The position numbers and the translations under genes were made by a program. The notes below the pieces were generated by a model that was given only the letters and a program-made list of their open reading frames with translations, was not told the origin of the DNA and did not search any database. Positions 13,783-53,261 of a DNA stretch of 59,168 nt are shown piece after piece (position 1 is the stretch's first letter; the number at the start of each line of letters is the position of its first letter). The DNA is from Caldilineaceae bacterium (GTDB lineage Bacteria > Chloroflexota > Anaerolineae > Caldilineales > Caldilineaceae), in contig JALHQH010000067.1 in NCBI GenBank assembly GCA_022842065.1, forward strand, positions 1-59,168, written 5' to 3'.

Positions 13783-16700
13783 CTACCCTTCAAGGGGCAA
13801 CAGCTTTGCCAACTGTTCCAGCCCTGCCGTGGTATTGAAATAAGTCAAATGATCACAAGCGACCACGATGGCCTGGTCACCCATCGGCGCGTTACAGACA
13901 CTTTCCACCGTGACGGCGATGTCATTTGGTTGGCCAAAGAAGAGGGGCGCGGTCACTGTGTGTATCCAGGGCTTGGGCTTAAGTTTTGCCCAAAGCCGAC
14001 TGAAGAGCGTGCTGCCGCGCGCATCGGTTTCCAGTGCGGCCGCCATCAGGCTCGTGCTGCCGGCGATGATCGAATAGGGCACAGTTGGCTTGGGGCTGGC
14101 CGCCAGGTTTTTGAGGAAGTCGGAGCCGGGGGCCAGCTGCTCCAAGGCATTGTTAACCATCTCCAACCCCTCCACCAACATGCCAACAGCACTCGCCGGC
14201 CAGGCTACGGTTGCCAAGCCGTTAAAGCCGATACTCAGCGCCGTAATCGCATAATCCTCCACCGTCGGCCACGGGGAGCCATTATTGGGCGTACCACACA
14301 TCACCAGATGATCAACGACTTTGTCGCCCCCCTCACGCTCGATAAACCAGCGCGCCACCAGCCCCCCCATCGAATGGGCAACCACATGCAAGGTCTTGCC
14401 ATGATCAGGGCCAAGACCGGCATCCGCCAGGCGTGCCTTGAGCAGGCGTGCGGTATCTTCGATGATCGTGTGCAGATTTTCGTAATCAAAGGTGAGCACC
14501 AGGTCATAGCGATCACCAAGGCCGGCCACGGCCAAGGGTGGGTTCTTCAACGCCGGGAAAGCGCTTGCCGCCATGCCGCGTGTATCACCGATGATGCCGT
14601 GGACATAGAGCAGAACGCGCGCCGCCTTGGTTACCGCTTTTTTGACGGCGTTTGGATCTTTGTTATAACCAACCGGCTGCCCTTGCTCGATCCGCGCAAT
14701 CGCCAGTTGCGGATAGGTGTATTCCCAACCCAGGTGTTGACCGACAAGTTTCTGGAAGAGAATCTTGACCGAGCCTTTGAGATCGCGTGTGCCATTGGGG
14801 GCAGGCAAACGATCCAACATGACATCCACACCAGCAGCCGTGCGTTTAAAGCGGCCTAACGGCAGATAGAACTCGCCATCATAGCCCAGCGGCAACAGGG
14901 CTTCGTCCGGCTGTAGGGTCACATCTAACGAGACAACCAATGGTTCATCCGGCGTGACGACCGTGTGATCGACAACATCGATCAGTTCCAACACACTCAA
15001 CCCCGCTGCGCCGCTGCGACTGGGCGAGAGGGCCAGCGGCGCAAACATTTCCCCATTGTCGCGCAGTAGGGCAGGCAAGGGCGGGCTACCCAGATCGCGC
15101 GTGGTATCAGGCAAGGTGGTGAGCCGGGCGCGGGCGGACAGTTTTGAGTGGCCTTTGATCGTGACGGTGGGCGCGACTTTGTTTTTGGGATCACTAGAGC
15201 TAACCGGGGTTGCTGCCAGTGGGCGCACGGTCGTAAAGCTAACTTCCGCGGTCCGCCAATCAACCAGTTGTTCAGCATTAGCAGGTTGCATGGCAAAGCG
15301 CCTGGTGTGGACACGGTACATCAACCGGTTCAGGCTGTTGAGTACACTAAGGTTACGCGTAGTTGCCGCACCTTTGGTTACGACAACCGGCAGATCATCC
15401 TGGGCCAGCAGCGTGGCATCCCCTTCCTCGGTGCTGACCACCAATTTGAGCGCCTCTTTATACTCGACGACACCGGCTTGCCAGAGTTCATCCGGCACCA
15501 ACCCATAGATCGGTTCGCCATCGTTGGCCCAGACCTCCTGCTCCTTTTCCAGCCAAACACCACCCCCGGCCAGCAGTGGAAAGACGCCATAAGTTTCGGG
15601 CAGATCAAAGAGCATACAGTAAAGGCGGCGCTTGGTCTGGTTGGTGAGTTTAACTTTAAAGACTGGTTGCTGCCAGGCCCCCGCGTCAAAATAGTAATCG
15701 AGCCGCACTTCGCGATTGGCCGCCGCCGGTTGCCAATTACCGTCACCGTCGGGCACGAAAACGGTCAGTGTCACATCCTGCACGCCAAGTTTGCTGGCTG
15801 GGTTGTCGAGTTCCATAATTTTGGACCAACGGGCGATATGTTCCAACCGTTGGACAACCAGTTGTGCGCTTCCTTCATTAAAGCCAGGTGTATCAACCAC
15901 CAAGGCGTAGCCATCACCCTGTCGCCCGATGCGATAACGGTCAGCCGCAGCCGTGAGCGTTAGGTCAACGCCGGTGCCCGAACCTTCTGCCACCAGCAGC
16001 GAAGCCTCACCAGTGGGGCCGGCATGGGCCAAGGCGTCACGCACGAGGGCGAGGGCCCGGGGCTCGCCCTGCAAGGCCACCGTTAACTTGGTCAATGGCA
16101 AGGCAGTTACCAGGGCTTTGTAGGTGGTGCCAGGATCAACCGTCTGTCCAGCCACCAAACTGAGTTCAACGATGCTTTCGGTCGGCAGCACTTTTGCCAC
16201 AGTCGCGCTGCCGATGGCCTTTTCCAACGTTTGCAAATCGGTCACGTCGGTGTTAAAGGCAAAAAGCGCTAGGTGCGTCGTCTCATCACCAACGGGGACG
16301 GGTAGACCATGCACTGCGCCGCCATCGATCACCCAGCCGCGCGTTTTGTCATGGCGCAGGGTGTAGTAAGCCGGGGTTGGGGTGATGGCTCCGCCCAGGA
16401 AGGGTTGACCGAGGTCATCGCCTTGGGTTGCTTCCATCTGCGGCGACTGTGCAGAGACACGGGCGCGCACCAGGGCGTTGACCCGTTTGAAGAGATCGCG
16501 GTAGGTCAAGCCGTCGCCGCCCCGTTCCAATGATTCCAGCAGAAAGTAGGAGAACGCGCCGCGCTGTTCGCCGCCCAGGCGCAATTCTTTGGCCAGCTCT
16601 TCAGCGTTACAGGCGGAGAGCACTACATGGCGCCCCTTAGGTAACGAGTACCAGTCACCGGCCGCGTCACCGCCGCCCCGACTTAACGCGGTTGCTTGCG

Positions 16701-17247
16701 CCGCATCGACCAGGAAACTTGCGATGGGCCGCATGCGGTCATCGGTGGGCACACGGCGGACCAGTACCCCTTCATCCAGCAGGTCACGGGTGCCGGAACC
16801 GGAGTGACAGCAGTCGAGGATCACGGCGACGTGGGCATCAGTCGCGGCCACCTCGCTGATCAACTGGGCCAACTCTTTGTCGGCCAGATCCCAACCGCCG
16901 GGCAAGCGACTGTCATAACAGACCAGCGTTTCGTCCAGCCGATCCGGCTCCAGGTGCCAGAATTCTTGGGGCGAGTGGGATTGGGAGCCGTGGCCGCTGT
17001 AGTAAAAGAGCGCGACATCCCCCGCTTTAGCCTGGGCGAGATGGGTGCGAAAGCCATCAATGATCGCAGCACGTGTGGCCGCTTGGTCGGTCAGCACCAG
17101 GGGCGACCAGTGGTCGTCAGCACTGCTGACACGGGCCGCCAGCAACTGTTCCACACGGCGGATGTCATTCACACAGCCGTGTAAAGGGTTAACGCCAGGG
17201 GGATAGTGGTCGATGCCAACGAGCAGGGTATAGATGGTGCGGGTCAT
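13783..17247 (-). CDS. Caspase-domain protease fused to an alpha/beta-hydrolase
   Basis: This 1154-residue protein starts with a caspase (C14) domain: YTLLVGIDHYPPGVNPLHGCVNDI, the catalytic His in FYYSGHGSQSH near residue 87, and the catalytic Cys in ILDCCHSGSG near 146. The middle region is beta-rich and contains a segment (about 480-650) resembling the matching part of the neighbouring caspase protein. The C-terminal third is a PGAP1/lipase-like alpha/beta-hydrolase with LLYVHGIIGDT and the nucleophile elbow AHSMGG near 957. Ser, and probably Asp/His, are present, so it may be active on esters or lipids. There is no signal peptide. AAAGGAGG precedes ATG 17247. It is the last gene of the island and probably a protease-activated lipase effector (inference). 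Confidence 0.9.
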   Translation of the reverse strand: MTRTIYTLLVGIDHYPPGVNPLHGCVNDIRRVEQLLAARVSSADDHWSPLVLTDQAATRAAIIDGFRTHLAQAKAGDVALFYYSGHGSQSHSPQEFWHLEPDRLDETLVCYDSRLPGGWDLADKELAQLISEVAATDAHVAVILDCCHSGSGTRDLLDEGVLVRRVPTDDRMRPIASFLVDAAQATALSRGGGDAAGDWYSLPKGRHVVLSACNAEELAKELRLGGEQRGAFSYFLLESLERGGDGLTYRDLFKRVNALVRARVSAQSPQMEATQGDDLGQPFLGGAITPTPAYYTLRHDKTRGWVIDGGAVHGLPVPVGDETTHLALFAFNTDVTDLQTLEKAIGSATVAKVLPTESIVELSLVAGQTVDPGTTYKALVTALPLTKLTVALQGEPRALALVRDALAHAGPTGEASLLVAEGSGTGVDLTLTAAADRYRIGRQGDGYALVVDTPGFNEGSAQLVVQRLEHIARWSKIMELDNPASKLGVQDVTLTVFVPDGDGNWQPAAANREVRLDYYFDAGAWQQPVFKVKLTNQTKRRLYCMLFDLPETYGVFPLLAGGGVWLEKEQEVWANDGEPIYGLVPDELWQAGVVEYKEALKLVVSTEEGDATLLAQDDLPVVVTKGAATTRNLSVLNSLNRLMYRVHTRRFAMQPANAEQLVDWRTAEVSFTTVRPLAATPVSSSDPKNKVAPTVTIKGHSKLSARARLTTLPDTTRDLGSPPLPALLRDNGEMFAPLALSPSRSGAAGLSVLELIDVVDHTVVTPDEPLVVSLDVTLQPDEALLPLGYDGEFYLPLGRFKRTAAGVDVMLDRLPAPNGTRDLKGSVKILFQKLVGQHLGWEYTYPQLAIARIEQGQPVGYNKDPNAVKKAVTKAARVLLYVHGIIGDTRGMAASAFPALKNPPLAVAGLGDRYDLVLTFDYENLHTIIEDTARLLKARLADAGLGPDHGKTLHVVAHSMGGLVARWFIEREGGDKVVDHLVMCGTPNNGSPWPTVEDYAITALSIGFNGLATVAWPASAVGMLVEGLEMVNNALEQLAPGSDFLKNLAASPKPTVPYSIIAGSTSLMAAALETDARGSTLFSRLWAKLKPKPWIHTVTAPLFFGQPNDIAVTVESVCNAPMGDQAIVVACDHLTYFNTTAGLEQLAKLLPLEG

Positions 17248-17282
17248 GCTGACCTCCTTTAGCACAAGTATGAGTAGAACAG

Positions 17283-19310
17283 TTAATGGGATGATGGTGG
17301 TGCCTGGACACGCAGGGTCACATCATCTACGCTCCAAGCCGCCGCTGCCTCTGGGGCTTTGGTCAACTTAAAGGCGCGGGTCCGCGTCTCTTCACCGGTG
17401 ACGGACGCCAGCAATTGTTCCAGTGGATCGGTGATGCCTGACCTTTTGATGGTACGCTCAATCGGTGGCTGATCAAGGGCGGGTAATTCGAGCCAGTGGA
17501 AATCGGTGGTTGAACGGGTGGCAAAGACCTTGAAAATGTCATTGCTTTCAGTTTGCCCCTCAGGTAGATAGGCTTCAAACTCCAGTTCAATACTCTTGCC
17601 CGGATCAACCGGCTCAAAGGCGGCGGTCGCCGGGTAGATCTGGCTAATGCTCCAATCCGAGGAGAGGGCGAGGACCGCCACATTGAGCACCAGTTTGGGA
17701 TCATTCGGATCACGTGGATTGGGCTTTTGCGTATTGGTAACCTTGAGCGCGATCTGGTCACCGGGGTGAATCGGATCACCGGGCGTTTGTAGTGCTACAT
17801 CTAGCATGGCGCGCGCATCAGGGTCGGGCATGTCAAGCGCCAGGACATTACGATATTGGACGAGATGAACCAGCCGCTCGACCAGTTGGCGGGCGGCAGT
17901 TGGGTCATCAGTACGCAGGGCAGGGCGCAAATTAGAAAGAGGTGCCCCGGCTGTATCGGTGATGACAAATTCGCCGTCGTCCACCTTAATCACAAATTCG
18001 TCGGTGGTGCCGGCGAGCGTGACAAAACCGCGGCCGGCCTGCTTAATCGCCGCCTCCACTTGGCTGCGCAACCCGGTATCAGCGATTTCGACGCGCACAT
18101 CACGTTGCAGTTTGACATCTGTGGCATTGAGCATGACCGCCTGTGCCCCAACATCAATGGCCGCCGCCTGCCCCTCCGTAATCGTCGCCCAGCTATCGAC
18201 TTCGTTCACCTGGGCAACCGTAACCAGGGCAAGGCGGGTCTCCGCATCGTTAAAATCAGTGGTGCCGACGGGATAGACCGCGAATTGGGTACCTTGGCTG
18301 ATGCCATGCACGGCACCCGCCCCTAAACGCACCCGATTCTGCCCCGCCTCCACCGCCATCACCGCCACGGCATAGTGTGTCGTCAGCCGGTCGTGCCCAA
18401 AGACCCGAAAGTCAGTCTCGCCCTGAATCATCGGGGTTTGTAATTCAAACTGGCTATGCACCTTGGCTGTCACGCGGTCACCGACCATCTTCCAGGTAAA
18501 GTTGGGGCCGGCGTTACTCAGGGTATCAAGCAGCCAGTAGGTGAGCGCACCATTGCTCTCACGGCCATCAAAGGGATATTCAAAGGCAGATTCGCTGGCA
18601 CGACAGGCAGCAAAGAGGGTATAGCCCTTCGTCTCAAAACGCCAGTCCGTCTGTGATGCTACGCCGCGGGCGACTCCGACCTGATCGCCTTGCCAGTGGG
18701 CAATCAATTCGTTGAGGGGCGCCACCAGGCTATCGGTTGGAGCCAGCGAGGTGTCAGCCCCAGCAATGCCACGTTTGACGGCACCGCCAATATTGCGGGT
18801 CGCCCCGCCAGAGTGACAGCAATCAAAGACCACCGTCAGGCGAATCCCTTTGGCGACAATGCGCTGCAGCAGTTCGTGGACCTCGACATCGCGTAGATAG
18901 CGGGCGGTGGGGTCATCTTTTTTACCGATGTCAAGGGGGACCAAGCCCTCGTCAAACTCCCCTTCGCCTTTGATCGCTGGGAACATAGTGGTGGTGCGCC
19001 CGCCGTGGCCGGAAAATTGAATATAGAGCTGATCACCAGCCTGCGCCACCTCGGTAATCTCATTAAAGGCGTTGACCATGTTGGTATAGGTGGGCCACTG
19101 GCTGGGATCTTCCTTAGGCTGAGCGCCCCCCAGGCTGGCGGTAAGTTTGATGATCTGTTGGGGCTTAATACCCAGGCGCGCAGTCAGAAAGTTATAAACC
19201 TTGGTGATATCACGCACACAGCCGCCGAGCTTGGGGTAGTAGGTCCCGCCGGGCAGGCGATACTCGAAATAGTGATCAACACCGATCAGAAGCGCGTAGT
19301 GGTTGGACAT
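17283..19310 (-). CDS. Caspase-domain protease (C14)
   Basis: This 675-residue protein opens with a caspase domain: YALLIGVDHYFEY, His in IQFSGHGGRTTT near residue 101 and Cys in VVFDCCHSGGATRN near 163. After about residue 300 comes a beta-rich region like that of the downstream caspase-hydrolase protein. It includes ERLVHLVQYRNVLALDMPDPDARA and a DUF4384-like segment (KSIELEFEAYLPEG...DIFKVFATR). The two genes are therefore paralogues that diverged in their C-termini. No signal peptide is present. AAAGGAG precedes the ATG. Its stop lies about 35 bases before the next gene's start. Confidence 0.9.
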   Translation of the reverse strand: MSNHYALLIGVDHYFEYRLPGGTYYPKLGGCVRDITKVYNFLTARLGIKPQQIIKLTASLGGAQPKEDPSQWPTYTNMVNAFNEITEVAQAGDQLYIQFSGHGGRTTTMFPAIKGEGEFDEGLVPLDIGKKDDPTARYLRDVEVHELLQRIVAKGIRLTVVFDCCHSGGATRNIGGAVKRGIAGADTSLAPTDSLVAPLNELIAHWQGDQVGVARGVASQTDWRFETKGYTLFAACRASESAFEYPFDGRESNGALTYWLLDTLSNAGPNFTWKMVGDRVTAKVHSQFELQTPMIQGETDFRVFGHDRLTTHYAVAVMAVEAGQNRVRLGAGAVHGISQGTQFAVYPVGTTDFNDAETRLALVTVAQVNEVDSWATITEGQAAAIDVGAQAVMLNATDVKLQRDVRVEIADTGLRSQVEAAIKQAGRGFVTLAGTTDEFVIKVDDGEFVITDTAGAPLSNLRPALRTDDPTAARQLVERLVHLVQYRNVLALDMPDPDARAMLDVALQTPGDPIHPGDQIALKVTNTQKPNPRDPNDPKLVLNVAVLALSSDWSISQIYPATAAFEPVDPGKSIELEFEAYLPEGQTESNDIFKVFATRSTTDFHWLELPALDQPPIERTIKRSGITDPLEQLLASVTGEETRTRAFKLTKAPEAAAAWSVDDVTLRVQAPPSSH

Positions 19311-19534: not shown

Positions 19535-22500
19535 TCACGGATGCTGCTCTGCAACCCCATTTGCATGGGACTGACCACGCTTCGCCCTGGTGCGGCGCCG
19601 CGGTGGCTCTTTTTGCGCGGCACCGGCCCGTTGCCGTTCAACTTGCGCTGGTTGCAGCGCGGTCGCGTCCGTCGTTTGGGGCACCACGGTCGGGTCCTGC
19701 GGGGTAGGCTCATCAACTTGTTCATCTGCGGTGCTGATACCGATGCCCGCGGGGTCAAAGAAACGAAAGTAGGGGTTGCCATAGTGTTGATAGGCCCCCC
19801 AGGTGCGCGTATCACCGGGTGGGGTGGCGATCAAACGCCGCGCTGCCATCATCGCTACATAGATCGGCAGCGGTTTGACGGCACGAAAGGCAGTGCTGTA
19901 GACCAACGAAGGTTGATTGGCCAGACTAAGCGGCTCTAGCCCAAGCATGCCGGCATAAAGGCTAAGCGCAAAATCGCGCGCCGCCCGGTCATCCACCGGC
20001 CACGCGGTGCAGACAAAATTGGTCACCCCGCGCGCAAAGAACGATTCAGCAAAGCTGGGCGCCAGTTCAACCGAGCGTTCGTCGGCGCGTGCCGGCGTAA
20101 TCCCCGATTCGCAGGCATTCGAGAAGACAAAGGCGGGGCTGCGGTCCACCCGCGTAAATTCGTAGGCACTCAGCCGTTCCCCATTACTAAAGATCCAACC
20201 CGACGCTGCGGGATTCTCTTTGTCGTAGAGACAGTGGCCGGCAAAGTGCAGCACATCATAGGTGCGCATCATCAGATGACGTAGCACGGTGGTGCGGGTT
20301 GCCTCGCGCGGGCCAAAGAGACGCACCACTTCCACCCGATTTTTGGTGGCGCTGTGGGCATGGACAATATTGAACTGTTCAAAGAGATCGGCCACGGCGA
20401 TGCCCTCTTCTTCAGCACCGGGCAGATGCGCATCCTCGGCCGGGTCGGCGACGACAAGCACGCGTAATTGGCGTTGGGCCGGCGGCGGTGGCTCCGGCGG
20501 CGGGGCATAGATGGTGCGCAGTTGCCGTGTGAAGCCCCGGCTGGTCCCCAAAAAGCGCAGATGGGGTTCTACTTGCGGCAGCCCATCTGCCAGTTCACCG
20601 GCCAGGTCGGATTGGGCGAGCAGTTCCCAGTGAATGCGCGCCGTGGTCGCGTCCAGCATCATCACCAGCGGGGCATTGGTGCTGAGTTGGCTGCGCAGGT
20701 CCGTGGGGATGAGCAGGCGCTGGACAAATTGGCCCAAGTTTAACTGGCGTTCGGGATCGGCTTCGGCGGCCAGTTCATCGTTGGCACGGTGTACCAACAC
20801 CGGATCAAGGGGGATCTCCCGTTCCGGGATCGAGGCATGTTCGGTGATCGCCCCAAAACGATATTTTTTACCCTCAACGCTGACGGTAATGCGTGTCGGG
20901 GCGACCTCGTTTACAGCAAGCTCGCCGGCCCATTGTTTTAGTGTTTGTTTCATTTGGCGCTGGACATACTCAAGCGCGGCACCGGCATAGGTGGTCCGTG
21001 CGGTCGGGGTTAGCGGTGTGTACCGAATCTCCATTCGCTTTTCGGACGCTAGCCGCACCTGTTCGCGGCGCAATGCCTCATCAAAGGCAAGCACTTTACG
21101 CGGGTCGGTAATGAAAAAGGTGATCTCTTCCAGCGCACGGGCGTGTTTCACTTCTTTGTCGGTTTTGGTCATACCGGTAATCGCCAGCTTAATCCCTCGC
21201 ACCCAGCCGGCAACCGCATCGGCAACACTCAGATTATCACGACCGACCCCAATTAAGACCGTGGCCAGATGTTTTTTATCCATCCGCCCCAACGACCAAC
21301 AGAGCTCACGGACCAGCACCGTCAATTCAGGCGTGCCAAAGCGCCCCGGTTCCCCCATCCCAGCGATGGTCAGGAGTCGTTCCGGATTGCGCGGGTCGGT
21401 TAGGAAAAAGGTCTGTGCCAGATCAGCCCGAATCGTCCCCCGTTGGGTATATTGGGTCAGCAACAGATCGGCATCCTGGGCGCGCGCGGCCCCATAACTG
21501 GAGAGCTCTTCGTCTGGATTTTCATCATTATCAGAGATGTTCCGCCCTTCTAACTTCCGGCTGATCTTGTAGTCGAGCGTCCGCAAGATACCATAGGGTT
21601 TGCTGCCGCTGTAATGACCAATGGCCAGTGCGTCCACCGCCTGGACCGCGGCAGGCAGTGCCAACAAATTATCGGTAATGTCGGCCGCGACGAGATTGAT
21701 CTTGATCGTCGGCACCCCCATGTCGATCAGGCGGTAGCTCAGTTTGGCGCGATCAGTTTCACCACTAAGGAAACCAAAGGTCAGCCGCTCTTCAATGTCA
21801 CGCGCCTCGACCGAGATAAAATTGCGCGTTGCCCCTTGCTCCCCGCGACTGTTTACCCGGCGCACCAGCGTTTCAAAGGCGTTGCGCACCTGGCTGCGGG
21901 GATTCATGGCAACAGGAGTTTCAGGCAGTGCCCACAGCTTGCGCACTTCGGTTTCGCGCCGGGTATTGATCAACGCAGAGGTGAGCGGTTGCAGCCCACA
22001 GACGGTCGCGTCACGGGCAGGTGCCCCGTCACTTGCCAATAGTTCGTTGATCGCCATCAGCACTTTGGGGTGGGAACAGAGATCACCATGCAGCGCGTCG
22101 GTGTAATAGGCAGGGATGTACTCCCCATCAACCGTGCGCAAGACGCCCAAGGGATGGGCCACCGTACCGTCGCCATTGGCGCCAAAACGATAAGCTTGTT
22201 GGATATAGAGCAACTCTTGTTCAGCATCCGGCTGCCGGGTCACCGTAAAATTGCGCAACTGGTTCAGGGTAACCCCGACAAAGGTCGGCTGATTATGGCC
22301 GGCCAGGTAGATCATCCGGGTCGGCTCAACAATTGCGCTGTCTAACTGCTGATGAAAGACCAGGGCATTGCTGAGGTGTTCTTGGGGCACGTTGAGTTCC
22401 CGCCCATAGGTGGAGGCTTGATAAAGGGCCGCCAGTTCGGCATCGATGGTCGGATTCGGTAAGAGCTGATAAAGACCGGGAAAGGATTTGAGGATTTCGC

Positions 22501-23425: not shown

Positions 23426-23965
23426 CTAACTTGCACACTTAAATTCTAGACATCGAGCCAGATCTTCTATCGCAATTGCTGGATCTTGACAATCGAGTCC
23501 TTCTTCATTGAGAACGACACAGGGTTCAATGACACCAGGACCAGATTGAAGAACACGAACAGCGCGAAATTTTGTATTATTTGTCCGGTCCTGTCGTAAT
23601 TGGAATCGCCACTCGATATCTGGATTATCGCGCAGTTCTATATCGCGGATAATCGGGATGCGCAATTCTACATCACGGGCGTCTGCGCCAACGTGTGACC
23701 AGACAGCACGAAAGTTTCGGGACGAGATGTCCGATTCATTGCCATGCGCTTCAAAGTCAAATGAAATTAGATCTTTACGCCGATGCAAAATATACGAAGG
23801 CTCTTGGTCACCTACCTTTTGTAAGCCTAAAATGAACTCACCATCAATGACCGATGGCCGGCCGACTTCATACTCATCCAAAGGGAACTCTTTGACCTCT
23901 TCGCGTATTATTTCATCGTCACGGATTGCAAAGGTGATGACGAACTTGATTTCCGTATTAGCCAT
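23426..23965 (-). CDS. Conserved-looking hypothetical protein between protease genes
   Basis: From ATG 23965, preceded by AAGGAG, this is a 179-residue soluble protein without a recognised domain. It is acidic, with many beta-strand-like stretches (IKFVITFAIRDDEIIREEV, ELRIPIIRDIELRDN, EWRFQLRQDR). No signal peptide or membrane span is visible. It directly follows the metallopeptidase gene (gap about 41 bases) and precedes the CHAT-hydrolase gene. It could be an inhibitor, substrate or adaptor for one of them; that is context only. Confidence 0.6.
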   Translation of the reverse strand: MANTEIKFVITFAIRDDEIIREEVKEFPLDEYEVGRPSVIDGEFILGLQKVGDQEPSYILHRRKDLISFDFEAHGNESDISSRNFRAVWSHVGADARDVELRIPIIRDIELRDNPDIEWRFQLRQDRTNNTKFRAVRVLQSGPGVIEPCVVLNEEGLDCQDPAIAIEDLARCLEFKCAS

Positions 23966-24006
23966 TGGATTAGTCTCCTTACGTTCTTTATCTGTATGAA
24001 CATTGA

Positions 24007-25896: not shown

Positions 25897-26022
25897 TGCC
25901 CCTCCAACATCTTGAACTTGATTTATCAAAAACTATGAGAGTTGATGCTCTATCAGAAAACAGTAGCTGTATTATTACACAACTCTGTCTGCTCACTGTT
26001 TAGGTAAATAACTGTGCTACCC

Positions 26023-29703: not shown

Positions 29704-29713
29704 AATTGTTCTG

Positions 29714-38122: not shown

Positions 38123-38220
38123 GTTGCAGGGTTGCAGGGTTGCAGGGTTGCAGGGTTGCAGGGTTGCAGGGTTGCAGGGTTGCAGGGTTGCAGGGTTGCA
38201 GGGTTGCAGGGTTGCAGGGT
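38123..38220. repeat. 9-bp tandem repeat, about 11 copies
   Basis: GTTGCAGGG is repeated perfectly about 10.9 times. It lies 15 bases before the ribosome-binding site of the 262-residue protein gene and 50 bases after the stop of the GH-M23 gene. Degenerate units continue to about 38262. Slippage would change leader length in 9-base steps. Confidence 0.95.
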
Positions 38221-45900: not shown

Positions 45901-48498
45901 AAAGGCAATGAACAACGCCAGCACAATCGTCAGTAGCCAACCAAAAAAGCCAAAGGGCAGCGCATAGCCCGTGTTGATACGCAAGACTTGTGGTGGTAGC
46001 CGGCGGGCTAAATAGGCTTGGGTGAGCGTCCAATAATGGCGGACGTTGCCGGCAATATTGATATAACTATCTGCGTCGAGCAAAGTTACACTCGAGACGA
46101 GTTCAAGCAACCCGCCAAAGAGCAGCCGTTGATTCATAATGTATGTCCGCACATCCGCCCAATACAAACGTGTGCGAATCTGCTTATTCTCCACTTCGAC
46201 AATCGTCGTTTCATCCACTTCCAGCCAACATTCCTGTTGCGCCTGTACATTCCCCATCGTCGTTTTCGTGATCAGGTAGAGTCCTAACACCGTATACAAA
46301 CTTAGGTAAGCGAGCAAGGCACCGGCAATACTGGTGCCCAGAAAACGACTACGCAAGTGTGGCGCTACCTGTTTTTGGATTTCCGACAACACTTCACCAC
46401 TAGCTGCCCCAACAGTTGGTTTAAAGGCCGCGACCAATTCGGCCTCTGTTGGCAGTTTGAGGATCGCGGTGGCCCCAATCATCGTGCCGCTTTCGCTACG
46501 AATGCTGGTTAATAAGGCGATAAAGATCACAACCCAGAGCATAATGGTGGCATACCGTTGGAATGTAGCCATTGTTGGATGGACAAAACGCGTTTCATAA
46601 ACACGCTGTGGGTTCTGCTGTTGTGCAGTAGCCAACTGTTCATTCGCAAGCGCAGAAAGTTCGGCACGACTACCAAGCAGTTCCATCGCATGCAGCAGAT
46701 CTGTAACTCTGGCGGTGTTGCCCACTTTTTGCCAGGCGACTAGGGCCGCCTGGTAGGCAGCCATTGCTGCGTCCCCACGCCTGGCCTGCGCAGCAATAGT
46801 ACCCAAACGACTTTGTGTTTGCGCAATGCGCCGTGTATGGTTCAGTCGTGTAAAGATCGGCAACGCTTGTTGCAACAAACGTTCCGCCTCGTCAAGCTGG
46901 TGCTGGCGCAACAGCGCTTCGGCCAGTTCCAAGTGGGCGAGTGCCTGTTGATAACTATCCACCGGCGCGTTTGCCGCCACTTGCCGGAAGATGGCTGTTG
47001 CAGCTTGCCCATGATTCAGGGCGAGATAGAGCCGCCCCAAACTGACCTGTGTCCGTTTCAACCCGATTTGATCATCTAATTGCTGATAGATCGCTTCTGC
47101 TTGTCGGAACCACACGATTGCTTCACTAAATAGGCGGGCAACTACCCAATCCATGCCACGCCCGAGCCGCCACCAGATCCGCACATCCCAGTTCAGGTTG
47201 AGTTTCCAGACCAGAAAGAAAATCAGGGGTAGACGAGCCACAAAGCTGATCCCTTTTGCAAACTGGGAGCCAAGTGACTCATCCAAATCGAACTCGTCAC
47301 TGTGGCCATAGGCGGTTTGCGCAATGTTTAAATAGGTGTCACCCAGATTCGCCATTGTTTCGGCGACTTCGCGCGAATTTTGCTGTTGCTGGAAGAGCGC
47401 TAACGCAGCATGATGATGCTGGCTCGCTTCAACCCAATTTTGCTTGGCGACCAGTGCCAGGCCAAGTCCCCGTTCCACGCGCGCACGTAGATTGGGTGGC
47501 AGATCGGGGCGCGCAAGCAACTCTTGAAAAGTTTGTTGGGCAACAGCGTCGCGCTGGTTGAGATGGTGCAGCCAGCCTTCCGCATAATCGATCCAAGCGC
47601 TATATGCGCTGGGCAAACGTGGCTGTAATTCCTTGAGCACCCAAACATACTGGCGTGCCGCTTCTAATTGATAGTTGTCTTCCGCCTTTTGCATCAGTTC
47701 GCCCAAACGCACCACGCCTGCAGCAGGGTCGGCAAGAAAAGTGTGATAGAGATGCGCTTGGACCAGACGCGTATAAGCAGCCGGTTGCAGCGGCGGGTTC
47801 AGATCCAGGCGCTGTTGTAAATGAGCCAAAATTTGTTGATTTTGTGCTTGAAAACCAGTGGGATCAGCTTCCCAACTTTGGAGTAGCAGCCGCCGCGCCA
47901 GGCGACTGTAGGTATAGTGCTCGGCCCAGGCATAGACAAAGGAAAAGTGGCTGAGCTTTTCCAAAATGATCGGTTCGCGGCCATCGTGGCGATTGCGAAT
48001 TGCGGCTAACAGCCCTTCATCCCACCAGAGGGGAATGGCACAGGCCGCCAACAAAGTTGCCAAAGTTGGCTGCTGCTCTTTGATTTCAAAAAGCAACTGG
48101 GCCATCATGGCTTCAAGTTCATGCTCAACCCCAGGCGCTGGTGGCGCGCCATAGGCAATGGCGTCATCCAGGGCAGCAAGTGCGGCGGTGATCTGTTGCT
48201 TCAATTCATCGCTGATCGCGGCAATGGCGGCGGCTTGGGTATAATGTTGGCGGGCTTGTGCCGTTTGGCCGGCGACAGCGAGTGCCGCAGCCGTCGTCAT
48301 CAACACCTGCGCCGCCTTATTGGCCGCGGCTGTCCGCTGATTTGGCAGATCGTTTAGAATATAACGCAGCGGGATGCCATATTTGCTATGCGTAAGCCCC
48401 AAATTTTGCGCGGCGCGCAACAATCGCTCGGCCTCATCCCAAACCTGGGTATCAATTGCATGTTCAAGTTCAGCTAGTAGCGGGTGGCGGCGGCTCAT
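42901..48498 (-). CDS. Giant TPR-repeat membrane protein
   Basis: This is an 1865-residue protein. The N-terminal 600 residues are TPR-like helical repeats (e.g. ALAHLELAEALLRQHQLDEA). A central region from about 640 to 1015 has about seven hydrophobic spans (IMLWVVIFIALLTSI, GALLAYLSLYTVLGLYLI, WLLTIVLALFIAFVGLIV and others). Residues about 1030-1865 hold many canonical TPRs (e.g. YVYNSLGNVYLQLKEYEKAL, AHLLLGRVQRQLEQG). No catalytic domain is apparent, so it is a scaffold bringing cytoplasmic TPR arms to the membrane. It starts 15 bases after the small NTPase gene and ends 41 bases before the GH-M23 gene. TPR arms often bind CHAT proteins, as in gRAMP/TPR-CHAT, which fits its place here. Confidence 0.88.
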   Translation of the reverse strand: MSRRHPLLAELEHAIDTQVWDEAERLLRAAQNLGLTHSKYGIPLRYILNDLPNQRTAAANKAAQVLMTTAAALAVAGQTAQARQHYTQAAAIAAISDELKQQITAALAALDDAIAYGAPPAPGVEHELEAMMAQLLFEIKEQQPTLATLLAACAIPLWWDEGLLAAIRNRHDGREPIILEKLSHFSFVYAWAEHYTYSRLARRLLLQSWEADPTGFQAQNQQILAHLQQRLDLNPPLQPAAYTRLVQAHLYHTFLADPAAGVVRLGELMQKAEDNYQLEAARQYVWVLKELQPRLPSAYSAWIDYAEGWLHHLNQRDAVAQQTFQELLARPDLPPNLRARVERGLGLALVAKQNWVEASQHHHAALALFQQQQNSREVAETMANLGDTYLNIAQTAYGHSDEFDLDESLGSQFAKGISFVARLPLIFFLVWKLNLNWDVRIWWRLGRGMDWVVARLFSEAIVWFRQAEAIYQQLDDQIGLKRTQVSLGRLYLALNHGQAATAIFRQVAANAPVDSYQQALAHLELAEALLRQHQLDEAERLLQQALPIFTRLNHTRRIAQTQSRLGTIAAQARRGDAAMAAYQAALVAWQKVGNTARVTDLLHAMELLGSRAELSALANEQLATAQQQNPQRVYETRFVHPTMATFQRYATIMLWVVIFIALLTSIRSESGTMIGATAILKLPTEAELVAAFKPTVGAASGEVLSEIQKQVAPHLRSRFLGTSIAGALLAYLSLYTVLGLYLITKTTMGNVQAQQECWLEVDETTIVEVENKQIRTRLYWADVRTYIMNQRLLFGGLLELVSSVTLLDADSYINIAGNVRHYWTLTQAYLARRLPPQVLRINTGYALPFGFFGWLLTIVLALFIAFVGLIVTNSPLAITPLLFLPYTPADLYGLLFLAGALAAVYWFVIQSIRNYLIRQPRRTTLRGIALASLGLGIFSLFQFHRWHLPFGRPDLLLSALTILLAGFALHQHFLITQRANRLRFYANGSVIIAALAIGFAFWTIKQELRSFDSLAQANGHFLQAEKLKGQDEKAAEREYQQALTRYTETLSLRQEAYVYNSLGNVYLQLKEYEKALEAYQAAQQGNPSELNYSLNLALAYREWAATTKDFPTREQYYRQALAEYDQVIAGLDNAPSLRDDEKANQWSAHELRAATWHELGTMYYALDQGWQPALEYFTHAKRDYEWLIAQNPAEPASYVGKGWTLFYLRSEHPPAEKAVRRQYFEAAITEFSTAIAKDPTYSPAYNGLGWMHWYISNESIPGNCIAGIDPVLKADYQAQIEAAVEAFTQGVAADSGNGFFFRTRAQLYYILSYCEPDAKIEYLGKAVADYDLALANDPPVEWHWRQGTIYQELATNLEKTGRNSEARTAREAAVQSNLNALKQDPNYPRPYDSLPAIYAKLGRTSAQAFERIVATMQEKSDQPKPIKPNFTQLARKELTRGDWTLAIKAAAIAIAADPNAAEAYLIQAQAFQRLGAPVQAQAALTKVAKLQLDNPSLSYELGLMHLLLGNLAQAQTAYRAGNQATAALADQSSRLPIYAKAIKDVLIAPAPVTNDAVPLALSIVDTLLPELTIVTRTASGYFEAGQAALTDKQYALAVPLLVQAVRLDPTAFRYWIPLRTALIDGYAVSQTDSGAAVLTLLLGVSVGTDPYAKLLEIAQAELGRDTFGLAVVALDRALVLYPDRLEILLLKAQAYQRWGDKFPTAASVLTRYQSAVEAAQEALKLNPESVEAHLLLGRVQRQLEQGPESLAAYEQALELAADDDTAAWVAYLRGDYAQATTLWAALIARNPTELRYYFNQGLALVALGDQSAAQQSYTAGIAAADALDTVPRAVALYQAAADLYSIQVDPTASASQLIDLLTVTQ

Positions 48499-48513: not shown

Positions 48514-49380
48514 TTAGATCCACGGTTCTGGTTCTTTTTTTAATTCGTCCAACAGTGCATTGTCGGCCATCTTACCGAGTAGACCGGGATGGCCGCGCGA
48601 GAGAAGCATCAGTGTTTCACGCGAGATATTTGGTCGCCCCGTCAAGCCGCGTTTCACAATAAACTCATCAATGTGATCATCAGTGAAAAGATCCAGCCCG
48701 GTCTTGGCCACGGTATCGTTCCAACTTTGGTCAAGCTCTGGCACCTCGCGTCCGGCAATAATCAGTAGCACATTGTCCAGCTCATCGTTGCGCAGACGCC
48801 ACAGCAGGTTGTTTACAATCCAGTCTAGTGCTGATGCTGGGGCCAGATCAGCCGTATCAAAGAGAAAGACCACCTGCCCCAACTGCACCAGGCTCTGTAA
48901 ACAAACAAAAAAGGCATCATTGATGCGAATTTCCATATTGCGTCGCACCAGATCGCTATCGGTTTGGATGGTCGCGAAGTTGTCGGTGGTTAATTTTACT
49001 TCGCTCACGTTGATCGGGCTATTGACCAATTGACTGTCCGCAATTGCCACATTCACCGCGACGTTTTCAACCCGCAGGCTGGTTACCTCATTAATCACTT
49101 GGGTTAGATAGTTGAAATTCGCGCTGCCCAGTTGATCACGCGCTTGGCGGACAAGGGTCAAGTAATCCCACGGTTGGCGCTGGCTAAAGTCCATCAAGGC
49201 AACCGGCAGATTTCGACTGCGGCACTCGTGGTAGAGCCGTTGGATTAACCAAGTCTTGCCCATTTCGGCGGGGGCTTTGACGATCATGATTTGCTTGGGG
49301 GTCTTCTTCTCCAGCATCATCATGAACCCACGCCGCTGTTTATCACGGTTAACAAACCATTCAACATAATCGCTAGCCAT
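48514..49380 (-). CDS. P-loop NTPase (STAND-like) linked to the CHAT gene
   Basis: This 288-residue protein has a Walker A-like IVKAPAEMGKTWLIQ near residue 35 and a Walker B-like QVVFLFDTADLAP near 165. A sensor-like VLLIIAGREVPEL strand and a C-terminal helical region (SRETLMLLSRGHPGLLGKM) follow. This is a minimal STAND/AAA-like core. An inserted beta segment contains SQLVNSPINVSEVKL (about 112-126), whose NSPIN core recurs in the adjacent CHAT protein. AAAGGAA precedes the ATG. The pair could form one switch: NTPase plus separate protease. Confidence 0.78.
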   Translation of the reverse strand: MASDYVEWFVNRDKQRRGFMMMLEKKTPKQIMIVKAPAEMGKTWLIQRLYHECRSRNLPVALMDFSQRQPWDYLTLVRQARDQLGSANFNYLTQVINEVTSLRVENVAVNVAIADSQLVNSPINVSEVKLTTDNFATIQTDSDLVRRNMEIRINDAFFVCLQSLVQLGQVVFLFDTADLAPASALDWIVNNLLWRLRNDELDNVLLIIAGREVPELDQSWNDTVAKTGLDLFTDDHIDEFIVKRGLTGRPNISRETLMLLSRGHPGLLGKMADNALLDELKKEPEPWI

Positions 49381-49423: not shown

Positions 49424-50974
49424 TCAAACTGAGACATTGGCGCGCTTGATTGCGGCTTGAATGTCAACCGGAATCTGCCAGATCAACTGGCGTGCCTGTG
49501 CGACATAGGCCGGTAGTAAGGTTTCTAGCTGTTGCACATGTTGCGCAATCTGCGTTTGCAACATCGCCTTTTCCTGCTTGTCGTCACTGAACAACTGTTG
49601 ATTTTCCAACGCCAGTAAGCTACGGTAGAGCCGCCGAACGATGCCTTCATCATTCGTCAATTGTAAGGCAAACCGGTCGGATCGCGTGACGTCAGTTACA
49701 CGAATCGGTTCTGACAACGAGTTTTGGGTTGGGCCAGCCTGAATATTGATTGGTGAATTGCTTAGCGTACTCCGGTCAATTTGGAACGCGATGCCCAGCC
49801 CATTGCCGGTTGACGACAATTTAGCTGTAGCCTTGCTTTCAGCTACGACGGTGTCTACCGTAGGCGTCAGAATCTGGTTATCAGCCGACCGGCTAAACAA
49901 CACTGGCGTCCCCCACTCCCGTTCATCGCCGGCGGCGTAGAGCGCTTTGCGCGCTTCGGTCACGGCGGCGTCCACGGCGTAACCATCGGCTACGGCGCGA
50001 TAGAATTCGTAGGCAAGCGCAATCGCCGCTTGGTCGCTCACCGGGAACTGCATCGCCACTACCGCCGGCATACCCTGTTGCACCAACTTCTGCGCCACGC
50101 CGGCAAAGGGATCGCTCTGCCCGCCTTGGGCCCCCTGGCAGGCATTGAGTAGCACCAGGCGCAATGATTGATGGTCGTGGAGCAAAGTCGCCAAACGTTC
50201 GGCGCTAACCGGATGGCTTTTGCCGGCGTTGTCGGCAAAGATCAAGGTACCCGTGTTGTGGTCGGCGTCAAAGGTACCGTGGCCGATGAAGTGCAGAATG
50301 TGCAACGGCGATCCGCGCAGACGCGCCTGTAACATCGGCAGCGTCGCTTTTTCCAGTCGCTCCAAAACGACCAGCCGGCGTTCGCTTAAATCAGCCAAGG
50401 CGGCTTGTAGTTGGTGCCACTCCTTTTCCACATCAAGTTGGACAACGTCGCTGGGATCGGCAACCACAGCGAGAATATGTAAAGGGGGCGCAACAGCTAA
50501 TGTTTCCTCCCCCAGCGCTAATTCGACGTAGCGCACCAACGGTGTTTGGGCGGAAAGTGCCAGGTGACGATCAAGATCGGTCGCATAGAGATACTCCCAG
50601 GGCAAGTCGGCCAGTTCCAGCACATCCCCCAAGCGTAAGCGAATGCGCAGCTTGTCCTTGCTGAGATCCAAGCTGCGCGCAAAGACTTTCCCCACCTCCC
50701 CCGCAAAGACTGCGGCATAGAGCCGTGCCCCAAATGCTTTTGGATCAAGGATCACAGTGGGTGGCTCTACGGTCACCAGCCGTAGTTGCCGGGAGAGCCG
50801 GCCCGCGAGCCAGAAGAAGCTGCGCAGCTCTGCAGGGCTAAAGGGCAGGACAAAATCCACATTTGCCTGGCCGGCAGGTGAGCTAATCACACGCGCATTA
50901 TAGCCACCGCCACTACGGGTAACGAGGAGATCAAAATTTTGATAGGTTGTCATCATACCGTTCCAACTGGGCAC
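49424..50974 (-). CDS. CHAT protease, stand-alone
   Basis: This 516-residue protein has an N-terminal helical and beta lead-in and a CHAT domain with LHFIGHGTF near residue 230 and LLNACQGAQGG near 277. Downstream WGTPVLFSRS is the usual final strand. The C-terminal 150 residues contain STLSNSPINIQAGPTQN, like the NSPIN segment of the next gene, and a coiled helical tail. The start is uncertain: GTG 50974 or ATG 50956; neither has a good ribosome-binding site. It lies 44 bases upstream of the NTPase gene and downstream of a mobile element (51061-51211). Confidence 0.88.
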   Translation of the reverse strand: MPSWNGMMTTYQNFDLLVTRSGGGYNARVISSPAGQANVDFVLPFSPAELRSFFWLAGRLSRQLRLVTVEPPTVILDPKAFGARLYAAVFAGEVGKVFARSLDLSKDKLRIRLRLGDVLELADLPWEYLYATDLDRHLALSAQTPLVRYVELALGEETLAVAPPLHILAVVADPSDVVQLDVEKEWHQLQAALADLSERRLVVLERLEKATLPMLQARLRGSPLHILHFIGHGTFDADHNTGTLIFADNAGKSHPVSAERLATLLHDHQSLRLVLLNACQGAQGGQSDPFAGVAQKLVQQGMPAVVAMQFPVSDQAAIALAYEFYRAVADGYAVDAAVTEARKALYAAGDEREWGTPVLFSRSADNQILTPTVDTVVAESKATAKLSSTGNGLGIAFQIDRSTLSNSPINIQAGPTQNSLSEPIRVTDVTRSDRFALQLTNDEGIVRRLYRSLLALENQQLFSDDKQEKAMLQTQIAQHVQQLETLLPAYVAQARQLIWQIPVDIQAAIKRANVSV

Positions 50975-51060
50975 ATCCTGCTGTCCGACCCGAGATTATC
51001 GTTCGTGCCAAACAGTTTGTTGCATGATTTGTAGAAAAAAGTTTGGCTCAACCGGAATTC

Positions 51061-51211
51061 AGGGGGTTGCCATCCCGCCCCGCCGTCAACGCGCCCAGTG
51101 GGCACCCGGGCTACCCAACAATGCCGGGTACCCCCCTCCCTTAGCCGGGTTTACCCGGCGTTGTTCGGTAGCCCTGCGGCTTTAGCCCAGGGCGATCTTG
51201 TCAACCCCCTA
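51061..51211. mobile_element. 151-bp dispersed palindromic element, copy B
   Basis: This copy is near-identical in layout and length to 9455-9605, in the same orientation. Ends AGGGGGTTG and CAACCCCCT are inverted repeats. It lies in the only large gap (265 bases) between the transglutaminase-fold gene and the CHAT gene, so it may split the block into transcripts. Confidence 0.8.
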
Positions 51212-51239
51212 AGATCCCATTGAACCAAAAGTTTAAAGC

Positions 51240-52478
51240 TCATTCCAACGGCGTAATCCCATACTTAGTGCGCAATTCGCGTACCGGCCAGCGTTTGAAC
51301 GATTGTTCATTCGCCGCCAATCCTTCAAATGTGGTGGCCTGTTCTTTGCCCAACTTGCGTGCCTCTTCAAACGAAGCCAGGCCGATCTTAGTTGTCTCTA
51401 AATATTCCCATTGACCGCTATTTTTGCCGGTCTCCCACGCGACCAGGGCGTGGCCAGGGATGATCACCAGCGCTGGGCTGAGCGAGGCGGCTTCGAGCAG
51501 GCTGGCAAAGAGTAATACGCCGTCGATACAGTTGGCCTGTTGTTCGGCCAGGCTTTGGCGCGGCAGGCGCACGCGCTGGGTGCGGGCGCTTTGGTCTGGG
51601 TTAAAATTCACCGTCGAGTTGACATAGGTGATCCCCGCATCGGCCTGTAACGCGTCAAAAATCGCACACACCTGGGCCTCGACATCCCGTCCGGCTTGGT
51701 AACCAAAGAGTTGTTTCTGCTCATGTCGCGCCGCGGCCTTACGCAGAAAGGCCATCACCGTCGGCTCGTTCGGGGTGACAAAGGCACCCAGATAACGGGT
51801 GAGGTTGTTCCAGCCGCCGGTCGCCGGGTCACGCACATAGAGCGGGGCGGCGTTGCGCGCCAGCAGCCAGATCGGCTTGGTCTGGTGAATTTCGATCTTG
51901 CCATCGAGATCGTCGACCAAGATATTGAGCGTTGCCCGCGTCAACTCATGTAGATCGCGCAACCGTTCGGGGAAGAGGGTCGGCAGTTGCGTCACCTGGC
52001 CACTTGTATTAGCGGGCAGCTCGATGCTGTCGATCGCCTGGGCAGAATAGCCTTCGATGTAGGAAGTGATGCGCAGCCGGCGTGTTTCGCCTGAACTGTT
52101 GCTCACGTCGCAGGTGATCAGCGGGTCCGCTTCGGCGTCGAGCAGGTGATAGATGCCGGTGGGAATCTGCGCCATTTTGAGCTGCACCGTTGCCTCTAGC
52201 CCAGTGGTCGCGCTGCCACGCGTCACACCACTGCGGGTGACTGGCCCGGACGCGGCGTTTTCGATGGAGAGGATCAGGCCACGCTCACCATCGGCCAGGG
52301 ACTGGGTCGCCAGTACGGCTTCAGCCGCCACCAGTTGTTGCTGGGTCGCAGCCAGCGTGGCAAGCAGTTCCTGGCGCGCCGTCCCATCGTCAACGTCGTG
52401 CAGTAACTGGGTGAGGCGGTTAATCGTCAGGCGTAAATCATAGGCCTCTTCATGCAAGGCAATTGATTGAGCGGGCAT
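51240..52478 (-). CDS. Transglutaminase-fold protein of the island
   Basis: This 412-residue protein opens with a coiled helical segment (residues 1-60), then an Ig-like beta region (about 65-190). A papain/transglutaminase-like core follows: QANCIDGVLLFASLLEAASL with the candidate Cys near 316, IIPGHALVAWE with His near 343, and YLETT near 358 for the third residue. This order of Cys, His and acidic residue is the transglutaminase-like triad, so it may be a peptidase or crosslinking enzyme. No signal peptide is present. GAAGGA precedes the ATG. It shares the operon with the astacin gene upstream. Confidence 0.8.
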   Translation of the reverse strand: MPAQSIALHEEAYDLRLTINRLTQLLHDVDDGTARQELLATLAATQQQLVAAEAVLATQSLADGERGLILSIENAASGPVTRSGVTRGSATTGLEATVQLKMAQIPTGIYHLLDAEADPLITCDVSNSSGETRRLRITSYIEGYSAQAIDSIELPANTSGQVTQLPTLFPERLRDLHELTRATLNILVDDLDGKIEIHQTKPIWLLARNAAPLYVRDPATGGWNNLTRYLGAFVTPNEPTVMAFLRKAAARHEQKQLFGYQAGRDVEAQVCAIFDALQADAGITYVNSTVNFNPDQSARTQRVRLPRQSLAEQQANCIDGVLLFASLLEAASLSPALVIIPGHALVAWETGKNSGQWEYLETTKIGLASFEEARKLGKEQATTFEGLAANEQSFKRWPVRELRTKYGITPLE

Positions 52479-52520
52479 AAGACGGGTCCTTCATTGCAGC
52501 ACTTCGTGTGTCTTCGTGGA

Positions 52521-53261
52521 TCAAGCTTTCTTCGGATAAAGTTGCGCGATAAATGCCTTATCCGTGGCCGAAAGTTCGGTATTTGTTGGCGTCGCCGAGC
52601 CATCGGTGGTCAACTCGGCGGGGAAGAAGTAGAGCATGATCGAGTCACGGTCGAAGCGGGTAAATTTGTCGGCCGCGACTTTATTGAATACCTGGGCACG
52701 CGTCTGCTGCTCCGACCAGCCATTGGTGCGCTTGAAATAAGCGTAGACCTTCTCTTCGTCCCACGGAATCGTCACCGAAGGCGAAAGATGTTCGTGGACC
52801 AGCCCTAGCGCATGGCCAAATTCATGGAGCACGACGCGACGGTACTCCTGCTCTTTGGTGGTCGGTGTCAGCCAGCCATAGTTCATGCTCGGGCGGCCAA
52901 ACAGCCAGAACGCATTTGAACGCACCCCCAGGTGTGACCACGAGCCGCCCTTGGGATCAAAGCTGATGCGAATATCAGCGTTTGGTCCTTTGACAAAGCG
53001 GAAGGTGAGATTGGCGTATTGGCTCCACTCGTGGGCAATCGGCTCAATGCGCTTGTGGACCGCCGGATCACCTTCGAGAAAACAGACCGTGATCGTCTTG
53101 CCATTCGGCCAGAGGTAACGGGTTTCAGTCGCCCCTTCCAGCGGATCATCGGGGTTGAACTGCGGTGCGTTGGCCGGGTTCTCGTTGATTGCGTGCAGGC
53201 GCAATTCTTCGAGCACTTCGGCGGGGATGATTGGATCGAGACAGAGTTGATAATGGTCCAT
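52521..53261 (-). CDS. Astacin-type zinc metallopeptidase (M12A)
   Basis: This 246-residue protein is a compact astacin-like catalytic domain. The zinc motif HEFGHALGLVHEH spans about residues 144-156, and SIMLYFFP near 207 supplies the Met-turn and the Tyr. There is no signal peptide or long propeptide, unlike secreted astacins. The N-terminal 50 residues may act as a short pro-region. AGGAGG precedes the ATG. It is the first gene of the co-directional block, and a promoter is expected in 53262-53400, although no clear one was found. Confidence 0.88.
   Translation of the reverse strand: MDHYQLCLDPIIPAEVLEELRLHAINENPANAPQFNPDDPLEGATETRYLWPNGKTITVCFLEGDPAVHKRIEPIAHEWSQYANLTFRFVKGPNADIRISFDPKGGSWSHLGVRSNAFWLFGRPSMNYGWLTPTTKEQEYRRVVLHEFGHALGLVHEHLSPSVTIPWDEEKVYAYFKRTNGWSEQQTRAQVFNKVAADKFTRFDRDSIMLYFFPAELTTDGSATPTNTELSATDKAFIAQLYPKKA

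Follow-up and report, generated by a model that had tools for sequence, protein, structure and literature searches.

A 59,168-nucleotide stretch of DNA from a Caldilineaceae-related bacterium (contig JALHQH010000067.1, assembly GCA_022842065.1; hereafter the window) carries an island of 16 co-directional minus-strand genes, g01–g16, at positions 13783–53261. The island is 95% coding and brings together caspases, CHAT proteases, STAND nucleoside triphosphatases (NTPases) and cell-wall hydrolases, which raises the question of whether so many parts form one system and, if so, what they accomplish. The reading that we favor, with a probability of roughly 0.4, is that of a modular island for regulated lysis, directed at membrane and wall, switched by STAND proteins and relayed by proteases. 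Domains, motifs and gene associations are read from the sequence, while the order of events, the trigger and lysis itself are proposals. The new element is a domain with two transmembrane helices (2-TM domain), encoded by g08, which links clan CD-type proteases with wall hydrolases that are apparently not secreted. The features of the island are the following (aa, amino acids; bp, base pairs; TM, transmembrane; TG, transglutaminase; GC, fraction of G and C).

52521–53261, minus strand: g01, 246 aa, M10/astacin-like zincin with the motif HEFGHALGLVH (Pfam Peptidase_M10, 39.0 bits against a cut-off of 24)
51240–52478, minus strand: g02, 412 aa, TG-fold protein with helical hairpin, beta-sandwich and papain-like domain
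49424–50974, minus strand: g03, 516 aa, CHAT protease (Pfam CHAT, 113 bits) with His and Cys motifs
48514–49380, minus strand: g04, 288 aa, small STAND-like NTPase, a weak assignment
42901–48498, minus strand: g05, 1865 aa, TPR (Pfam TPR_12 and others), six TM-like segments by hydropathy (residues 645–1004), TPR
38270–42859, minus strand: g06, 1529 aa, N_BRCA1_IG, TIM-barrel-like part (weak GH5), SH3 and M23 endopeptidase with M23 motifs
38123–38220: tandem array of 12.2 perfect copies of an 8-bp unit in the g06–g07 gap
37312–38100, minus strand: g07, 262 aa, family without a Pfam name
36550–37233, minus strand: g08, 227 aa, helical 2-TM domain without a clear Pfam family, the proposed hub
36107–36281: imperfect inverted repeat of about 175 bp between g08 and g09
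33791–35866, minus strand: g09, 691 aa, CHAT and SIR2_2, with a TTN motif that reads TTS
29714–33787, minus strand: g10, 1357 aa, nSTAND1 (P-loop SPSGAGKT), TM-like segment (484–502), WD40
26023–29703, minus strand: g11, 1226 aa, CHAT, nSTAND1 (P-loop GPSGSGKS), TM-like segment (895–913), unnamed C-terminal part
24007–25929, minus strand: g12, 640 aa, gluzincin-like by motif only, GC 0.435
23426–24010, minus strand: g13, 194 aa, without an assigned family, overlapping g12, GC 0.446
19535–23239, minus strand: g14, 1234 aa, LCAT-like hydrolase (below cut-off, nucleophile Ser replaced by Ala) and CHAT with His and Cys motifs
17283–19310, minus strand: g15, 675 aa, caspase (C14) with His and Cys motifs (PADLOC caspase, 116.8 bits)
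13783–17265, minus strand: g16, 1160 aa, caspase (C14) and alpha/beta hydrolase (DUF7379) with HSMGG
13718–13772, minus strand: hairpin and T run resembling an intrinsic terminator, read from the sequence, directly after g16

An initial annotation of this DNA had announced about 16 minus-strand genes ending at one terminator, among them two caspases, four CHAT proteases, two nSTAND NTPases, a SIR2, a TG fold and TPR and M23 giants, and all of this is recovered here. The start of g07 is corrected from 38517 to 38100, a third, weak STAND-like protein (g04) is added, and its two metallopeptidases (g01, and g12 by motif) are retained and become three if M23 is included. The most informative part of the locus, the 2-TM gene g08, had not been singled out.

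The g08 family comprises two hydrophobic helices with conserved flanks (36 members aligned). A protein search, restricted to 0.55–1.75 times the query length, returned 166 homologues, and among the best 120 of these, 17 carry the muramidase domain PF11860 and five carry N_BRCA1_IG, a domain also present in g06. In a sample of 298 genomes from the class of the Caldilineaceae genome G003 the domain occurs in eight (E ≤ 1e-5), and all eight loci were inspected (G-numbers denote genomes of relatives, L-numbers the loci fetched from them). It is fused to a PF11860 muramidase in four (G003, G121, G260 and G250, the 2-TM part of the last being truncated by the contig end). In G099 its fusion partner is a C14 caspase domain (L114, 5879–7654) and in G191 a C25-like domain (19.9 bits against a cut-off of 23). 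The domain stands alone directly before a C11 clostripain gene in G201, and beside a C25-like gene (20.9 against 23 bits) in a CHAT-SIR2/nSTAND1 locus of G015. Three C25-like proteins are homologous to each other, with 34–44% identity. The loci in these eight genomes indicate that the 2-TM domain marks a physical or functional link, at the membrane, between clan CD-type peptidases and wall cutting. PF11860 genes number eight in 15 genomes, four of them being 2-TM fusions, a rate that is not independent since the 15 genomes were chosen for carrying island families; caspases number 21 in ten of the same genomes, and three genomes have none. Outside the class the domain is rare, a phylum-wide search having found it in one of 400 genomes, the centre genome itself, so that its co-location rests on few genomes.

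Assignment of the 2-TM domain to a named Pfam family was rejected: nine of 36 members matched DUF2207_C, more than matched any other family (best E 0.0019), and the best single match was DUF2157, in one member (E 0.0017). The TRADD-N-associated TM family is absent from the best 25 of the 34 families matched, and a search of solved structures with the g08 profile gave no relative better than E 0.11.

The wall enzymes associated with the domain were compared with putative secreted proteins. Among ten wall hydrolases, namely g06 and its relatives, nine have a hydropathy peak of 0.41–1.46 within the first 40 positions, and four of five secreted controls have one of 1.82–2.52; most of the hydrolases therefore probably stay inside the cell, in the manner of endolysins. 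The muramidase part in L003 matches PHROGs endolysin families, as does, among other matches, the M23 part of g06. By BLAST, four loci (L144, L145, L146 and L148) encode a g07-related domain and an M23-like part in a single frame, the Pfam M23 check covering L146.

From these components a sequence of events can be proposed. The membrane-anchored STAND proteins g10 and g11, perhaps with g04 on the scaffold g05, would be switched on after sensing through their beta-propeller or TPR parts, and would activate the CHAT proteases g03, g09, g11 and g14, which in turn would act on the caspases g15 and g16, the TG enzyme g02, or both. At the inner membrane g08 would act as the gathering point for the proteases and for the unsecreted wall hydrolase (g06/g07), and cleavage or clustering there would breach the membrane and allow the hydrolase to reach peptidoglycan; the hydrolase of g16 may in addition attack lipids. 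The cell would then lyse by way of g08, in a manner comparable to bacterial gasdermin operons or holin-endolysin pairs, and a phage, a competitor or a developmental cue could be the trigger. A bolder proposal, which we consider doubtful, is that g08-type 2-TM domains are gasdermin-independent executioners, i.e., hubs that join clan CD proteases with unsecreted muramidases or endopeptidases and convert STAND-triggered proteolysis into autolysis in a manner peculiar to multicellular Anaerolineae-type Chloroflexota. It would offer bacterial caspase-type cascades a possible killing route in which a membrane domain is joined, depending on the genome, to a protease or muramidase, rather than one by gasdermin or loss of NAD. 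If true, it would give the caspase/CHAT/STAND systems of multicellular Chloroflexota a testable executioner step and would supply a new domain marker by which such systems could be recognized.

The motifs of the enzymes are largely compatible with such a relay, active-site motifs being present in the caspases, the CHAT domains of g03 and g14 and that of g11 (His), the TG, M10 and M23 domains and the g16 hydrolase. Both caspases have a C14 domain with SGHG and DCCHSG, hence the His-Cys dyad. CHAT scores above the Pfam cut-off in g03, g09, g11 and g14; its His and Cys motifs were found by pattern in g03 and g14 and the His motif in g11, and the Cys motifs of g09 and g11 were read by eye. For g03 the PADLOC model SAVED_CHAT (53.6 bits) matches the CHAT part alone, and its solved relative is the CHAT chain of 8tl0. 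The small protein g04 scores below cut-off with AAA_35 (21.2 bits) and iSTAND (18.2 bits) and has a P-loop-like APAEMGKT. The two nSTAND1 domains, in g10 and g11, have scores of 375 and 99.9 bits, in no stated order (cut-off 27.1); the P-loop follows the consensus GxxxxGK[ST] in g11 and deviates from it in g10. In each of the two a single TM-like segment follows the NTPase, and the positive charges on its N-terminal and C-terminal sides (5 vs 3 in g10, 3 vs 1 in g11) would place the NTPase and CHAT parts inside and the C-terminal part possibly outside. In g02, the triad Cys317-His343-Glu361 lies in the papain-like fold and the C-terminal tail reads ITP[LM]E; no Pfam family matched this protein, features of the TG-like superfamily (fold and triad) being nevertheless present. 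A short motif, NSPIN[IV], is common to g03 and g04 and may be due to chance or represent a shared interaction segment.

Other Chloroflexota contigs repeatedly place families of the island's two halves next to each other. The clearest case is L003, which carries on one strand genes for M10, TG, an SH3/muramidase/2-TM fusion and a caspase-hydrolase (52% identity over nearly the full length). L103 contains a g06-like gene, a caspase (with one stop), CHAT/nSTAND1/WD40, small open reading frames and g07; L106 has caspase, CHAT and nSTAND; L110 has CHAT-SIR2, nSTAND1/WD40, C25-like and 2-TM genes; L141 has muramidase, g07, C25-like and CHAT-SIR2 genes; and L007 has 2-TM, TG and LCAT genes. TG is followed by LCAT-CHAT in L001 and L058 and, with one stop in TG, by LCAT in L002; it is preceded by M10 in L044 and by EAD1-nSTAND1-FGE in L006 and L057. 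Downstream of its TG and LCAT-CHAT genes, L058 (11002–17593) encodes two FHIPEP proteins, one of 1636 aa that combines TPR with FHIPEP (FlhA-like) and another of 564 aa.

Genes of the g02 type occur in 13 of the 298 class genomes (three of 46 in the order of G003), those of the g16 type in 33 (E ≤ 1e-30), and those of the g07 type in 40 (E ≤ 1e-8, many partial). Where organism names are listed, g02 homologues belong to Caldilineaceae, Caldilinea or Chloroflexota; the caspase-hydrolase architecture of g16 is broader, with 1947 homologues and listed names that include cyanobacteria and Herpetosiphonaceae. Six Chloroflexota genomes encode a TG at least 45% identical over at least 200 residues (G001, G002, G003, G004, G011 and G177). 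By tblastn another island family lies nearby in four of the six and none in G177; in G011 a CHAT gene near TG narrowly misses the cut-off (23.4 vs 24 bits). Among the TG genes that are more distant, which lie mainly in longer frames, the majority are not accompanied by an island family. A TG homologue 55% identical over residues 87–378 is present in the actinobacterium Nonomuraea guangzhouensis (L004), where the fetched stretch contains no other island family. Caspase matches with E ≤ 1e-60 were obtained in ten genomes, and in five of these (G003, G060, G101, G034 and G135) the fetched stretch also contains an island family other than caspase. On one contig of G101 (C84, 218–20301; L104 is part of it) four C14 matches lie within about 20 kb and form a possible caspase cluster.

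As controls, ten of the same genomes supplied 19 stretches (256,289 bp), in which none of the 16 proteins had a match at E ≤ 1e-8 and a muramidase, C25-like, C11 and C14 query set had none at E ≤ 1e-3; the stretches were picked by arbitrary contig numbers rather than by a random generator, and 19 of 20 were obtained. In addition, the match lists of TG, 2-TM and caspase-hydrolase coincide in exact contig size ten times over eight sizes: 98,016 bp (all three families), 54,187, 14,547, 189,241, 17,485 (L003), 5,784, 117,694 and 2,729,891 bp. The comparison used listed entries of at least about 5 kb, transcribed by hand (66 TG, 28 2-TM and 100 caspase entries, of 120 each). Unequal sizes differing by no more than 20 bp were counted 11 times across 40 offsets, so that about 0.3 exact coincidences would be expected. 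A shared contig does not amount to adjacency, except where contigs are short; one of the eight is L003 itself and one is chromosome-sized. That the parts belong together beyond chance, as first supposed, is thus upheld by the recurring families and the empty controls. Of the gene order, sub-blocks recur on one strand in other Chloroflexota, and the full order appears in no relative examined.

The latter result bears on the strongest competitor of the regulated-lysis reading, a possible account in which there is no single system, and independent conflict modules of two to five genes (TG/M10; CHAT/STAND/TPR; wall lysis; CHAT-SIR2/STAND; and the caspase pair) are co-directional by chance, as in a defence island. 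Sub-blocks do recur separately and in differing combinations, and a single pathway would have little need of several CHAT-STAND-type units. The intergenic distances from g01 to g16 are 42, 265, 43, 15, 41, 169, 78, 683, 3, 10, 93, −4, 186, 224 and 17 bp; because gaps of 169–683 bp split the island, a single operon is unlikely and a division into several transcription units more probable. Counts of promoter and terminator patterns are no higher than in shuffled sequence. The 683-bp gap between g08 and g09 holds the 175-bp inverted repeat, which resembles a miniature inverted-repeat transposable element and of which no copy was found, for its core or by BLAST for the whole element, among the relatives' loci searched. 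The pair g12–g13 (23426–25929) looks like a late insert, given its GC of 0.435–0.446, compared with 0.506–0.610 in the remaining genes, and the single weak relative of g12 among the 298 genomes; g12 was accordingly rejected as a shared part of the island. Set against this account, the families g01, g02, g08 and g16, from opposite ends of the island, are contiguous in L003 and share contigs elsewhere, and the 2-TM domain links the wall and protease modules. The single 40-kb network is not supported in the form first envisaged, since blocks of two to five genes recur in varying combinations and no examined relative has the whole set; a unified network of 16 genes is unproven, and a set of several modules is likely. 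Within the 169-bp gap, just upstream of g07, the 8-bp array (GTTGCAGG) is a candidate for length variation affecting expression.

Abortive infection, in which phage sensing by the STAND proteins would lead the proteases and hydrolases to kill the infected cell, is somewhat unlikely in our view. The available portions of the literature report caspase, CHAT, nSTAND1 and SIR2 families from such systems, the distribution is patchy, and residues 134–349 of g02 match the NCBIfam model antiphage_ProA (NF058533) with 96.5 bits; that model is, however, 1903 aa long with a cut-off of 1500 bits, compared with the 412 aa of g02, and no paper on it was found. No phage trigger is known, and in g10, and perhaps in g11, a TM segment precedes the propeller part, which may point out of the cell. 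The Pfam-scanned flanks contain no defence family (PADLOC was run on ten island proteins only): on the left they encode ordinary metabolic enzymes and a transporter ATPase, on the right three unnamed open reading frames and a cadherin/CBM9 surface-type protein. A mobile origin was rejected, as TG and 2-TM profiles have no confirmed relative in viral contigs, and TG has no match in phages and three weak, partial plasmid matches (27–34% identity). With such flanks and relatives, and no viral or phage carriers found, the defence role proposed at the outset is not borne out, whereas its broader claim of regulated death or conflict stands in part through the known families (caspase, CHAT and nSTAND).

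A developmental device, combining wall cutting with control of cell death or division for HetF-like filament fragmentation, appears improbable. Caldilineaceae and Chloroflexota, to which the named homologues belong, include filamentous members, and the wall hydrolases look unsecreted. Filamentous Chloroflexota also figure in the available portion of PMC10907252. HetF is a cyanobacterial CHAT divisome protein according to the accessible part of PMC8406250; its NCBIfam model matches g03 in the CHAT region over part of the length with 84.5 bits, far below the cut-off of 1200, and the families are patchy (TG in 13 and 2-TM in eight of the 298 genomes), unlike a core developmental pathway. Least credible by far is that the wall hydrolases are cargo of a contractile injection system directed against other bacteria. 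They have no evident signal peptides, and sheath genes occur in eight of 15 genomes checked; none of 14 sheath matches, however, lies on a contig with a listed 2-TM or g07 match, many contigs being short, and the idea was rejected.

Several observations weigh against regulated lysis through g08 itself, for which both lysis and anti-phage function are putative. The whole island was seen once, no examined relative having the full set; g04, g05 and g13 have no match at E ≤ 1e-8 in 38 loci, and g12 has one weak relative. Five of the ten genomes with strong caspase matches (G204, G100, G174, G121 and G281) have no other island family nearby, the caspase of G204 lying in a polyketide locus and G281 being a 3.6-kb contig. 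The g08 of the window is not fused to a muramidase and its wall-enzyme neighbour carries M23 instead; both C25-like links to the domain fall below the Pfam cut-off; and the caspase fused to it in G099 has SGYG in place of SGHG and may be an inactive pseudo-caspase. The structure model of g08 (pLDDT 70) is helical and barely informative, a fold search with it matched no solved fold (best E 2.0), and charge does not settle its topology. Among the hydrolases, several have uncertain start sites and the tenth (L115) reaches a peak of 1.75 at residue 38; the fifth secreted control, with an uncertain start, peaks at 0.76. Two effector domains, finally, look catalytically damaged. In g14 the nucleophile Ser of the LCAT-like hydrolase is Ala. 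In g09 the SIR2 His is present and the Asn of the TTN motif, which we take to be a catalytic residue, is Ser, while the L110 homologue keeps Asn; an active SIR2 effector, as first supposed, is thus not supported.

Among described systems the nearest logic is that of the bacterial gasdermin (bGSDM) operons, which, according to the available text of PMC9612521, combine caspase-like proteases with NLR/NACHT genes and with lysozymes or amidases, and for which "holin-endolysin mimicry" was proposed. Shared with them is the joint encoding of caspase-like (C14/CHAT) proteases, NLR/NACHT-type genes, wall-degrading enzymes and a phospholipase, and loci of relatives place a caspase-like protease beside a membrane or wall effector. 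The difference is that a 2-TM domain, elsewhere fused to muramidase or protease, would take the place at the membrane. No gasdermin appeared in the Pfam results or in the solved-structure matches of g03, g06, g07, g12, g13, g16 and the g08 profile, the presence of a gasdermin model in these libraries being unchecked.

The NTP-dependent conflict systems of multicellular bacteria described by Kaur and colleagues (PMC7159879, PMC8195603, in the portions available) likewise have nSTAND1, caspase and TG-like peptidases and, in one system, a lysozyme domain linked to EAD1, which may be compared with EAD1-nSTAND1-FGE beside TG in L006. They differ in that the 30 window proteins scanned (16 island, 14 flanking) contain no MoxR, vWA, VMAP or EAD, so that neither the MoxR-vWA pair of ternary systems nor the EAD of EAD/EACC1 systems was found here, EAD1 being present in L006; g15 scores 21.5 bits with caspase_w_EACC1 (cut-off 140). 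The 2-TM link is not described in those portions. As in Craspase (type III-E TPR-CHAT; PMC9729208, accessible part) and SAVED-CHAT (PADLOC model, 8tl0), CHAT would serve as a relay in a proteolytic response; here, however, matches are confined to the CHAT region, no SAVED part or, among the same 30 proteins, Cas domain was found, and the activator of the presumed cascade would be STAND. Proteins with nSTAND1 and CHAT linked to diversity-generating retroelements are described in the available portion of PMC10907252; no reverse transcriptase turned up among the window proteins scanned. The island thus resembles the named systems in its working but fails tested defining features of them. Among the open-licence PMC papers listed for this subject, none describes this gene set or a 2-TM domain linked to muramidase or caspase, which is not proof of absence.

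Searches of the window detected no tRNA and no Rfam family at or above its gathering score. In L102 (493–12408), a full-length caspase-hydrolase homologue (42%) lies near polyketide synthase and luciferase-like monooxygenase genes. The cadherin-type protein of the right flank (56800–59031) combines CBM9 with cadherin/Big_9 and contains 300-bp tandem repeats (2.8 copies, 95% alike).

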